From assembly GCA_012799825.1 (NCBI GenBank), contig JAAZKK010000109.1, positions 1 to 38,991 on the forward strand: a stretch of 38,991 nt of DNA, written 5' to 3'. Of the stretch, positions 428-15,708 are shown piece by piece. Made by a program: the position numbers and the translations under genes. Below the pieces are notes generated by a model. That model ran no database searches, was not told the DNA's origin, and worked only from the letters and a program-made list of their open reading frames with translations. Every line of letters begins with the position of its first letter. Within the stretch, counting starts at the first letter, position 1. This DNA is from Clostridiaceae bacterium (GTDB taxonomy: Bacteria > Bacillota > Clostridia > Saccharofermentanales > DTU023).

Positions 428-2419
428 ATGGCAAAGGGGATCACGCCAACGACAACAAGACTGGCCGCAACCGTCAACGCTCGATATTATCCCGTTGAGG
501 GCGTTGCGGACGCGTACTGCATGGACGGCAAATTGCCCGGCAAACGCGAAACGCGCTCCGTCAACATGACCATGGACCGCGAATCGCGCGGCTTTTTGAT
601 TGCCGTCTACGGGTATCCGATGGACGGTCGAAGTAAAACGGAAGCCGGAGCCCGAGCACTCGTCGAACTTTCGGATGAGATGTCAGGCAGCAATGTAACC
701 ATTGATAATGCGATCAATGATCTTGCAGAGGCGGCTCTCGAGGTGACAGGGCGTCTTGAGGTTCGCCAAGAGGCGACTCGTGATCCTTATTTTGCCGGCA
801 TCATGGTGCATGACGGCGAAATGGCCGCTCTCACGGTCGGCAACGGCATCGCGCTGATTTTCCGCCACGATGTGCTTTATCCTCTGACAAGTTCCGTACG
901 TGATTTGAAAGCGACGGATCTTTATGGCGATCCCGTCGACGGGATTGACGATTTTATCGCGGGAGATGCCGGCACGATTTCCTATTCGAATATCGCGCAA
1001 CTCGAAGAAGGTGACCGCTTCATCCTCTGTAACGAGGATCTTTATCAATCGATCGGGCAGGATGGCATTTTGCGCATATTGAGCGAATCTGATGATCAGA
1101 TGGACGCCTCCGGTGAGATGATCACCTACGCCGCTGCCAACATGCCCGGCAAGCCGCTGCAGATCATCGCCATCTCCGTTGAGAAACTCATAATGGAAGA
1201 TTCGCCGACGTCTCGTTTTAGTCTCGGCCGTTTTGCTACACAAGCTATGGAACCGGTTCGTGATGTTCCGCAGGCTCGCCCTGATCCGAAAGCGCATCCT
1301 GCGTCCGATGTTTCGGCAACGCAGCGCTATCAAAAGCAAGACCGGCTTGATTTCCCTCCACCGAAGGAAGAACCGCCGATAGAGCAGGCACCGCCTAAAA
1401 CGCCTTTTGACCGCATCTACACAAGTGCCGCTTCTGACGTTCAGACCGCTCCCGCCGATGACTTGCCTTGGTCCTCGCCGGATGCTCGAGTTGACGACAC
1501 GCCGCTCTATCAGGATAGAAGTGTCAAGCGCGACATGACATCGCCCTTCGACGATCTTTCAACGGACGATCAAAATGCGGCTCCGCGCGACACTTACTAT
1601 GAATCAACGCCCCCCGCAACAGACGACGACCGATATGACGAAGATTATAGACCTCATGATCCGTATTCATACGATGGCGCGGGCGCCGGCGAAGACTATC
1701 TTAATGTGGGAAGTGCGCGTCGCGACACCGCAAGCAATCTTCCTGAATTTGCCTATTCGTCTGCGCATCAGCGCCGACGCTCGAGGATTCAAGATCAACG
1801 CGCACGCGATAGCCGATGGGGCGACGATTATGCTCAGACGTCCGATCAACTGCGAAGCACAGATTCATATGACGATGACGAGTATGACAATTTCGACCAT
1901 TACGACGATTATGACGATGATTTCGATGACAGATATAGTGATGACCGCGCGACCACCGCTTGGCCTCGCCGCCGACCCTATAACAAGAAGCGTCGTATTA
2001 TTTTCTACGCGCTTTTAGTCGCCGTCATCGTGATTTGTATCATTGCTCTGATCAAGCTTTTGACAAAGAATGATAAACCGACAGATACGACGACAACCCT
2101 CCCGCAAGAATCGGCTGATGTGATTGTGCCGAGTCAATCGGAATCAGTGGATACGTCCACGCCATCAGAATCGGCAGAACCCGACCCCTCTGAATCTAAG
2201 ACTGATCCGCAGCCTTCCGGTATCACAGGTGAGGTCACGCATACGATTGTAACCGGTGATTCTTGGTGGAGCATCTGCATGCAGTATTATAATACTGCGA
2301 CCGAAGCTCTCTGTCAGAAATTGGCTGAATACAACGGCAAAAAAATGACTGACCATATTCATACGGGCGGAAAGATCAAGGTTCCTCCGCTCAGTGTCTT
2401 GACAGGCAGCGGAGATTAA
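428..2419 (+). CDS. Membrane protein with degenerate PP2C-like domain, acidic linker and external LysM
   Basis: I start it at ATG 428, 7 bases after GGAGG, rather than ATG 422, which sits only 1 base away. The product is 663 residues. Residues 1-255 have the layout of a PP2C/PPM phosphatase: a FLIAVYGYPMDG segment at about 56-67 where phosphatases have VADGMGG, a VGNGIALIF strand near 138 and an EEGDRFILCNEDL segment near 193. The metal-binding aspartates of the family appear to be replaced (ADG to YGY, SDGL to NEDL), so it is probably not an active phosphatase. Residues 270-520 are low complexity and very acidic, with Asp/Tyr runs. A basic KKRR precedes one membrane span at about 524-548, which puts the C-terminus outside. 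Residues 602-655 form a LysM peptidoglycan-binding domain. I do not know a named family with this order. It could link the cell wall to a cytoplasmic signalling partner, but that is inference. Confidence 0.8.
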   Translation: MAKGITPTTTRLAATVNARYYPVEGVADAYCMDGKLPGKRETRSVNMTMDRESRGFLIAVYGYPMDGRSKTEAGARALVELSDEMSGSNVTIDNAINDLAEAALEVTGRLEVRQEATRDPYFAGIMVHDGEMAALTVGNGIALIFRHDVLYPLTSSVRDLKATDLYGDPVDGIDDFIAGDAGTISYSNIAQLEEGDRFILCNEDLYQSIGQDGILRILSESDDQMDASGEMITYAAANMPGKPLQIIAISVEKLIMEDSPTSRFSLGRFATQAMEPVRDVPQARPDPKAHPASDVSATQRYQKQDRLDFPPPKEEPPIEQAPPKTPFDRIYTSAASDVQTAPADDLPWSSPDARVDDTPLYQDRSVKRDMTSPFDDLSTDDQNAAPRDTYYESTPPATDDDRYDEDYRPHDPYSYDGAGAGEDYLNVGSARRDTASNLPEFAYSSAHQRRRSRIQDQRARDSRWGDDYAQTSDQLRSTDSYDDDEYDNFDHYDDYDDDFDDRYSDDRATTAWPRRRPYNKKRRIIFYALLVAVIVICIIALIKLLTKNDKPTDTTTTLPQESADVIVPSQSESVDTSTPSESAEPDPSESKTDPQPSGITGEVTHTIVTGDSWWSICMQYYNTATEALCQKLAEYNGKKMTDHIHTGGKIKVPPLSVLTGSGD

Positions 2420-13761: not shown

Positions 13762-14121
13762 GTGGAAAACAGAACAACAAGATATGTCGAGGAAAGGGAA
13801 GGGGCCGTCGTCAACCAGCGACCTTTTAAGATTCAGGAATCTTTTCTTAATCATTGCCGAAAAGAGAAAATTACCGTCGTCATCCAGCTTTTTGATCAAA
13901 CGATTCTTGAAGGACTGATCATCGGATTTGATCAGGAATCCCTTGTCGTAGCGGCACGCGGCGTACAACAGCTGATCTATAAAACATCAATCGTTTGCAT
14001 TCGGCCACATGCGGAGATACACATTCTTTTCGGTGATACACAAAGGCCGAGGCGTCGGAACGTCCCGCGACGCACTTATCCGAGTGCAAGTGTTGTATCA
14101 GTGCCACTCAATTATCACTAA
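13762..14121 (+). CDS. hfq: RNA chaperone Hfq
   Basis: 119 residues from GTG 13762 with a strong GGGAGG upstream. The Sm fold is clear: FLNHCRKEKITVVIQLFDQTILEGLIIGFD forms Sm1, and GVQQLIYKTSIVCIRP is Sm2 (usual form QQLIYKHAI). Hfq forms a hexameric ring that binds U-rich and A-rich RNA and pairs small RNAs with mRNAs. About 25 N-terminal residues precede the core, and an Arg-rich tail (RPRRRNVPRR) follows it. Both are longer than in Bacillus Hfq, and the basic tail may add RNA contacts. miaA-hfq order is conserved widely. Confidence 0.93.
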   Translation: MENRTTRYVEEREGAVVNQRPFKIQESFLNHCRKEKITVVIQLFDQTILEGLIIGFDQESLVVAARGVQQLIYKTSIVCIRPHAEIHILFGDTQRPRRRNVPRRTYPSASVVSVPLNYH

Positions 14122-14255: not shown

Positions 14256-14891
14256 CTAAAATGATTTTCGAATCAGACCGCAAACAGCGCCCAGAATCTG
14301 TGAAGTATCCTTGTCAAAAGGGATATCACCATAACAGCTATTTTCCGGATGCAGATACGCGCGGCCTGATGTGTCGTATTTGAGCGTCTTGACGGTCGCT
14401 TCATCCTCAAGGAGCGCGACGATAATATCACCTTCGTTCACGACGTTCGTCTTTTCGACGATGACGATGTCGCCATCTAAAATAGCGGCATCGATCATGC
14501 TGTCGCCTTGTACGCGCAACGCAAAATAATCGCCAGGTGCCGTCGTATGGTTAAAGGGGAAAGCGACGTATTGTTCGACGTTTTCAGAAGCAAATACTGG
14601 TTTTCCGGCGGCAACGCGCCCTAATAGAGGGACTAGAACCGGTACCGACGTATGATGCGACGTCACTCGGATAGCGCGTCTTTTGCCTGATCGGAGCTCG
14701 AGGAGACCGCTTTCTTCGAGCTTTTTCAAGTGATGGTGAACAGTAGACGTCGAGGCAATGCCAACTCCGCGACCAATTTCGCGAATGCTCGGCGAATACG
14801 CGTGCTCAGAAATATAACGAACAATAAAACGAAATATTGATGCCCGTGTTTCACCGGCATTTGCTCTTGTACGCTGTGCTTGTCGTGACAT
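14256..14891 (-). CDS. lexA: SOS repressor LexA
   Basis: 211 residues. An N-terminal winged helix (YSPSIREIGRGVGIASTSTVHHHLKKLEESG) binds SOS boxes. The C-terminal S24 self-cleavage domain has the Ala-Gly scissile bond in RVAAGKP (about 95-96), nucleophile Ser in GDSMID (about 131) and the general-base Lys in EATVKTLKY (about 168). RecA filaments trigger cleavage, which releases the SOS genes. Two LexA-box candidates lie 37-91 bases upstream, so it is autoregulated. It is convergent with hfq; the 134 bases between them hold only a weak AT-rich inverted repeat. Confidence 0.96.
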   Translation of the reverse strand: MSRQAQRTRANAGETRASIFRFIVRYISEHAYSPSIREIGRGVGIASTSTVHHHLKKLEESGLLELRSGKRRAIRVTSHHTSVPVLVPLLGRVAAGKPVFASENVEQYVAFPFNHTTAPGDYFALRVQGDSMIDAAILDGDIVIVEKTNVVNEGDIIVALLEDEATVKTLKYDTSGRAYLHPENSCYGDIPFDKDTSQILGAVCGLIRKSF

Positions 14892-14927: not shown

Positions 14928-14941
14928 AGAACAAATGTTCG
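14928..14941. promoter_or_regulatory. LexA (SOS) box 1
   Basis: AGAACAAATGTTCG contains the perfect palindromic core GAAC-N4-GTTC. It matches the Gram-positive consensus CGAACRNRYGTTYG at all but the first base. It lies 37 bases upstream of the lexA start codon, downstream of the probable -10. Confidence 0.8.
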
Positions 14942-14982: not shown

Positions 14983-15151
14983 CTAATCTCAGCTTATCAG
15001 ATGAACAGCACATGATCAAGGAGTTTTAAGCGTTTTGATCAAATGAACGCAATTTTAGCATGTACATGTAATAGAAAACAACTTGATGATGGACTGCTTT
15101 GCTGCGTAAAACACGATGAGACTTTCTTGTGAATGCGATGCAGTAGTGCCT

Positions 15152-15222: not shown

Positions 15223-15708
15223 ATGCACGATTCATATGATTCGTATGATAATAAGGATCGGGATCATCCGAGTGAGCGTCGTCGCGACTCGAGAAACATA
15301 GCGTCGCGGATTTCATCATTTGGCCGTCGCAAACGAAAACCGACTCAAATTGATTTCAAAGGAACGGATCCAAAACGTAGTGCAGATCGATTCGTATACG
15401 CTGGTTTAGAACCAACGCAACTCGGCTATGAAAATGAGAAGAAATTCGGGCACCGAATGTACAAGCTCAAGGGTTATACGACGTACAGCAAAGTGAGACG
15501 CAAGTATCAGATGGAACGTAATCAAAGACTATTGCGCGATCTGTTGACCGTTGTCATGATTATCATCCTGATCGTGATCCTAGCAATAATTTACAATCCA
15601 TTTAAAAATGCAGCTGAATTTTCAAAAATCTTCGGCTGGGATAGCAAGTTTGAAGATCCAAAATCGACGGTCGTCTATGAAGAGAGCGGACCGTCCGAAA
15701 CGCAGTAA
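15223..15708 (+). CDS. Small single-span membrane protein, unknown function
   Basis: I place the start at ATG 15223 because AAAGGAG lies 11 bases upstream; the ORF track extends further without a ribosome site. The 161-residue product is charged and basic at the N-terminus (Arg/Lys rich, with DSYDSYDNKDRD at the start). One membrane span, LLTVVMIIILIVILAII, lies at about 108-126, followed by a short acidic tail. The basic half should be cytoplasmic. Its short Tyr/Asp repeats and single span recall the protein at 428, and both share a promoter element. I do not recognise the family. It is divergent from lexA, but its own start is about 240 bases from the SOS boxes. Confidence 0.75.
   Translation: MHDSYDSYDNKDRDHPSERRRDSRNIASRISSFGRRKRKPTQIDFKGTDPKRSADRFVYAGLEPTQLGYENEKKFGHRMYKLKGYTTYSKVRRKYQMERNQRLLRDLLTVVMIIILIVILAIIYNPFKNAAEFSKIFGWDSKFEDPKSTVVYEESGPSETQ

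Follow-up and report, generated by a model that had tools for sequence, protein, structure and literature searches.

A predicted wall-anchored PPM-family pseudophosphatase with an external LysM domain in the Saccharofermentanales

The window, the whole stretch of DNA analysed here, comprises 38,991 nt (contig JAAZKK010000109.1, positions 1 to 38,991 of the forward strand; assembly GCA_012799825.1, Clostridiaceae bacterium; Saccharofermentanales; DTU023). A gene near its beginning encodes a protein whose predicted fold, loss of metal ligands and pattern of selection identify it as a putative PPM pseudophosphatase. A sequence-only reading had proposed a pseudophosphatase joined to an external LysM domain through one membrane span, and the analysis supported the fold, the missing metal site, the span and the LysM domain. 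PPM pseudophosphatases have been described in eukaryotes; here, a whole bacterial order keeps a putative one that is predicted to be wall-anchored. The interpretation that we somewhat favour is that the LysM domain holds the protein to peptidoglycan while the dead PP2C fold serves as a binding module.

The gene and the layout of its product

The gene occupies positions 428-2419 of the + strand (663 codons, 663 residues; open reading frame 422/428-2419). The ATG at 428 is preceded by GGAGG at a distance of 8 nt, and a MAK or MAT start matching this codon is common to nearly all homologues. The features discussed below are as follows.

193-209, + strand: extended -10-like element CATGGTAAAGTAAAAAT, the proposed shared promoter element (pair comparison with 15151)
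428-1213, + strand: predicted cytoplasmic PPM/PP2C pseudophosphatase domain, residues 1-262 (hhalign, Foldseek, ligand table, dN/dS)
608-619, + strand: degenerate motif 2, residues 61-64, YGYP, the metal Asp of ADG replaced by Gly62 (combined alignment)
1028-1042, + strand: degenerate motif 8, residues 201-205, CNEDL, the Asp of SDG replaced by Glu203 (combined alignment)
1148-1162, + strand: degenerate motif 11, residues 241-245, GKPLQ, the canonical DN lost (combined alignment)
1214-1996, + strand: disordered Asp/Tyr-rich cytoplasmic linker, about residues 263-523 (composition, topology, dN/dS)
1997-2053, + strand: single transmembrane span, residues 524-542, N-terminus inside (hydropathy 3.42, K/R asymmetry)
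2240-2386, + strand: extracellular LysM domain, residues 605-653 (Pfam PF01476)
2445-2474, + strand: probable intrinsic terminator between the gene and alaS (11-pair stem, then a T-rich tail)

The single span and the external LysM domain that had been read from the sequence were both recovered. The 15 residues on the inner side of the span contain 7 K/R as compared to 3 on the outer side, and the PF01476 match lies beyond it, on the outer side, where an outer stem ends in it. The match of the window protein is 20.9 bits (E 3.6e-4), exactly at the Pfam cut-off, and is stronger in relatives, the best among the orthologues being 1.7e-14. LysM was recognised in 23 of the 38 full-length orthologues and a bacterial SH3 domain in 2 of the 38; the C-terminal ends of some orthologues are degenerate and LysM-like, or are SH3 domains. 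The ectodomain is predicted to bind peptidoglycan. The linker is likewise as acidic and Tyr/Asp-rich as had been claimed, with 48 Asp and 18 Tyr among the 259 residues from 263 to 521. In some orthologues with long linkers the region near the span is not acidic.

The gene has its own ribosome binding site, and the 11-pair stem with a T-rich tail follows its stop codon; the gene is therefore probably transcribed on its own. An Rfam scan of the window, including the 5' leader, returned no match. Downstream of the gene are alaS, a HIT-family gene, mutS, mutL and miaA. The survey of homologue neighbourhoods that the sequence-only reading had called for found no conserved neighbours and no link to PrkC or wall genes: radA-ispD upstream, and alaS or serC-serA downstream, vary by family. 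Operon logic is therefore uninformative as a clue to function, since the neighbours change between families.

Predicted fold and loss of the catalytic site

Scans of residues 1-262 against Pfam and NCBIfam gave no model match, and the domain is therefore hidden from routine annotation. A profile of the orthologue alignment (48 rows) found no significant PP2C match among PDB sequences either. The direct scans were empty because the divergence is too great, and bridging through relatives was needed. Three alignments were used, consisting of the 48 orthologues from the window's order, 15 relatives from other Clostridia, nearly all of which end in LysM (LysM-PP2Cs), and 22 canonical PP2Cs (Stp/PrpC) of the window's order. 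In hhalign comparisons the orthologues matched the LysM-PP2Cs with 99.6% probability and the LysM-PP2Cs matched canonical PrpC with 99.5%, both over nearly the full length. The direct comparison of the orthologues with canonical PrpC gave 94.7%, as compared to at most 3.8% for 13 unrelated neighbour clusters employed as controls. When whole genomes were searched with the orthologue profile, PP2Cs were reached in two genomes (G043 and G045) at E about 1e-4, and PF13672 independently identified the same places. The LysM-PP2C profile found the solved bacterial PP2Cs tPphA, PppA, PstP and Stp1 among PDB sequences, with a best E of 6e-10.

Two AlphaFold models were also evaluated, one from the window sequence alone and one from three near-identical sequences. 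Their confidence was low (mean pLDDT 33 and 39), yet the order of strands and helices in both is that of PP2C, and for each model all 50 of the 50 top Foldseek matches listed were PPM-type structures. At such low pLDDT the Foldseek result would be insufficient alone; it agrees with the profile evidence. Together, the hhalign chain with its controls and the two weak models confirm the predicted PPM/PP2C fold of residues 1-262. The earlier guess of a PP2C-like fold was thus borne out, and no fold unrelated to the PPM phosphatases emerged.

The metal centre of these enzymes is binuclear and is formed by the Asp residues of motifs 2, 8 and 11 (PMC12088040). In the combined alignment every metal Asp is kept in all 22 canonical PP2Cs, whereas the window protein has V23, D28, G62-Y63, N139, E203-D204 and K242-P243 at the ligand positions. 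The contexts are IAV-YGY-P at the ADG position and LC-NED-L at the SDG position, so that the motifs had been read correctly as YGY for ADG and NED for SDG. The motif-2 Asp column is occupied by A, G, S or T in 48/48 orthologues and by Asp in 0/48, motif 8 has mostly K, R or another residue in its place, and the DN of motif 11 is replaced. The orthologues also lack the motif-1 Arg that binds phosphate (V23 in the window), and the motif-5 Asp, which binds the third metal, is absent from the window protein (N139). The motif-1 Asp survives as D28 and is Asp in 45 of the 48 orthologues. Conservation among the orthologues is particularly high at C201 and N202, and Q245, near the lost motif 11, is invariant. 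Homologues that retain all metal ligands were looked for within the order, and 0 of those aligned do. With the metal Asp of motifs 2, 8 and 11 gone, PP2C-type catalysis by the window domain would not be expected.

The possibility was considered that the gene is a decaying pseudogene or an annotation artefact, as the loss of catalytic residues might suggest. However, the gene is present in 95/98 genomes of the order, with full-length open frames across it. Comparison of the window with its two closest relatives showed the constraint to be strongest in the dead PP2C domain, with a dN/dS of about 0.04 as compared to 0.15-0.18 for the linker and 0.12-0.14 for the span and ectodomain. The dead domain is therefore under strong purifying selection and is not decaying. 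These values and the order-wide full-length frames refute the pseudogene or artefact explanation, to which we give practically no credence. Conservation was no higher in the old active-site region than in the remainder of the domain (Mann-Whitney p 0.94). A conserved pocket at the old active site is thus unsupported, and a retained phosphosubstrate pocket is not indicated.

A lineage of wall-anchored PP2Cs and related systems

The combination of a PP2C-type domain, one span, a low-complexity stem and LysM also occurs in several other families of Clostridia (among L121-L135 and L156-L165). The stem is Thr/Pro- or Ser/Thr-rich. These proteins differ from that of the window in keeping all to part of the ligands, whereas in the window's order all but one are lost. 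One of them, L163, has every ligand, a Stp1/IreP match of E 1e-55 and two LysMs; L129 and L158 keep the four Asp; L156, L132 and relatives keep the ligands in part; in L184 and L185 most are lost, perhaps by a separate loss of the active site. Like the gene of the window, these relatives are stand-alone genes. Scans with three single proteins found no relatives. In a maximum-likelihood tree, support was 100 for a clade comprising the window's group and 98 for a second clade of the canonical PrpCs; the LysM-PP2Cs were scattered between the two, in an inner branching order that is uncertain because of long branches. Given the intact to partly lost sites in other Clostridia, the window protein is the extreme of a wall-anchored PP2C lineage. 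An active wall-anchored phosphatase likely lost catalysis stepwise, a direction that we infer. The intact and half-lost versions offer a natural series for how and why catalysis was dropped while signalling or scaffolding was kept.

Two further variants were observed. In L184 and L185 the phosphatase domain is interrupted midway by a long, acidic insert rich in Gly. L166 and L167 combine a PP2C whose ligands are intact with one span and an external region; that of L166 matches a bacterial Ig-like (Big_2) domain, not LysM, so that the external domain is swapped within the lineage.

Stp1/IreP/PrpC of the PASTA-kinase operon (NF033484, PF13672) has the same predicted fold and belongs to a related lineage, but is soluble, keeps NED/ADG/SDG/DN intact and in this genome lies beside prkC, whereas the window protein is membrane- and wall-anchored with its metal centre lost. 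The M. tuberculosis phosphatase PstP is likewise a PP2C anchored in the membrane and has a putative PASTA domain outside (PMC12088040), but is catalytically active and belongs to the pknA/pknB operon. The eukaryotic pseudophosphatases PHLPP1/2 and TAB1 share a PPM fold with a lost metal site that is conserved without catalysis (PMC12002173); they differ in lacking a wall domain or LysM and in still binding one metal ion. The pseudokinase MviN of M. tuberculosis likewise contains a dead Ser/Thr-signalling domain, is tied to peptidoglycan synthesis and works by recruitment (PMC12599244), but its fold is that of a kinase rather than a phosphatase and it is part of a different membrane protein. 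In the openly accessible literature, outside which most subscription journals lie, no study of a LysM-PP2C and no bacterial PPM pseudophosphatase was found, and the LysM-PP2Cs of other Clostridia were not found described as a family. The words "LysM" and "inactive" are both absent from a 2025 survey of bacterial PP2Cs.

Proposed role and a second gene of the window

In the interpretation that we favour, LysM would hold the protein to peptidoglycan, probably where the wall grows or the cell divides, and the PP2C fold would act as a binding module without dephosphorylating anything. The partner that the module recruits, retains or competes for would belong to the PrkC/PrpC Ser/Thr network or to the machinery of wall synthesis or division, and the state of the wall, or position within it, would decide where that partner acts. 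Information about the wall is thus probably carried inward by partner binding and not by phosphate removal. Descent makes the PrkC/PrpC network the likeliest setting. Genomes of the order also carry an intact PP2C, and the PASTA kinase was shown in the window's own genome, where an intact prkC and prpC pair lies on contig C7. The pseudophosphatase gene does not adjoin this pair and sits upstream of alaS. To call the protein a sensor is inferential and exceeds the evidence: anchoring or scaffolding fits too, gene neighbours vary between families, and the conserved residues do not concentrate around the former active site.

A purely wall-anchored scaffold or positioning factor, in which the PP2C fold is a convenient surface for protein binding with no connection to phosphorylation, is a serious if less probable explanation, and we regard it as nearly as likely as the PrkC/PrpC setting. 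Both metal ligands and the phosphate-binding Arg are lost, conservation is spread over the whole domain, and the gene stands alone with its own terminator. The acidic, disordered juxtamembrane linker also fits, the layout being that of single-span division-site markers (cytoplasmic head, acidic tail, span, wall-binding end). However, the lineage is related to real Stp1/IreP-type phosphatases, and kinship of this kind in a genome with PrkC and PrpC makes an origin in that pathway likely. It is very unlikely that the domain is still an enzyme, using another set of residues or one metal only. PHLPP2 was long taken for active; it and TAB1 still bind one metal ion, yet are without activity (PMC12002173). 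The nearly invariant motif-1 Asp and the conserved C201, N202 and Q245 next to former ligand positions would suit such an enzyme, but only one of the four canonical metal Asp remains, and the phosphate Arg is missing. A more ambitious and decidedly speculative extension of the binding-module interpretation is a class of transmembrane pseudophosphatase receptors, in which peptidoglycan outside sets partner binding by the dead PP2C inside and so tunes the balance of PASTA kinase and PrpC, and which would have arisen as LysM-anchored phosphatases across Clostridia, initially active, gave up catalysis step by step.

A shared promoter element had been taken to tie the gene at 428 to a second gene at 15223-15708 (+), and this link was not supported. 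The two sites, TATGGTAAAATAAAAAT at 15151 and CATGGTAAAGTAAAAAT at 193, are identical at 19 of 24 positions, as compared to an average of 16 and up to 18 of 24 for shuffled pairs of the two upstream regions. A genome search with the element gave one further site within 2 mismatches. At the PP2C gene, conservation of the upstream element is confined to the three closest species, and only L002 and L003 have it at an identical distance. The match is that of an extended -10-like element, is uninformative and gives no good reason to tie the genes.

Two proteins elsewhere may be mentioned. Window positions 13762-14121 (+) encode an Hfq-like protein of 119 residues that is extended at both termini and scores below the TIGR02383 cut-off. 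Contig C105 of genome G000 (locus L074, 1273-2331, +) encodes a 353-residue kinase-like protein. Its gene directly follows one resembling clpX, and its kinase domain is divergent (MHGDIAPGN, LVDFSSA).

The gene at 15223 encodes a short single-span protein that could be assigned to none of the known families. It is divergent from lexA (14256-14891, -), with LexA-box-like palindromes between the two at 14929 (GAACAAATGTTC) and 14970 (GAACATTTGTTT); the 427 bases upstream of the gene at 428 contain no LexA-box-like palindrome. A protein of this type is present in 28/30 genomes, and the arrangement with lexA and LexA-box-like sites was found at 12 of the 12 loci checked, that of the window included. 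The slot divergent from lexA is the one in which Bacilli have yneA, and the protein may therefore be the SOS division inhibitor of the order.
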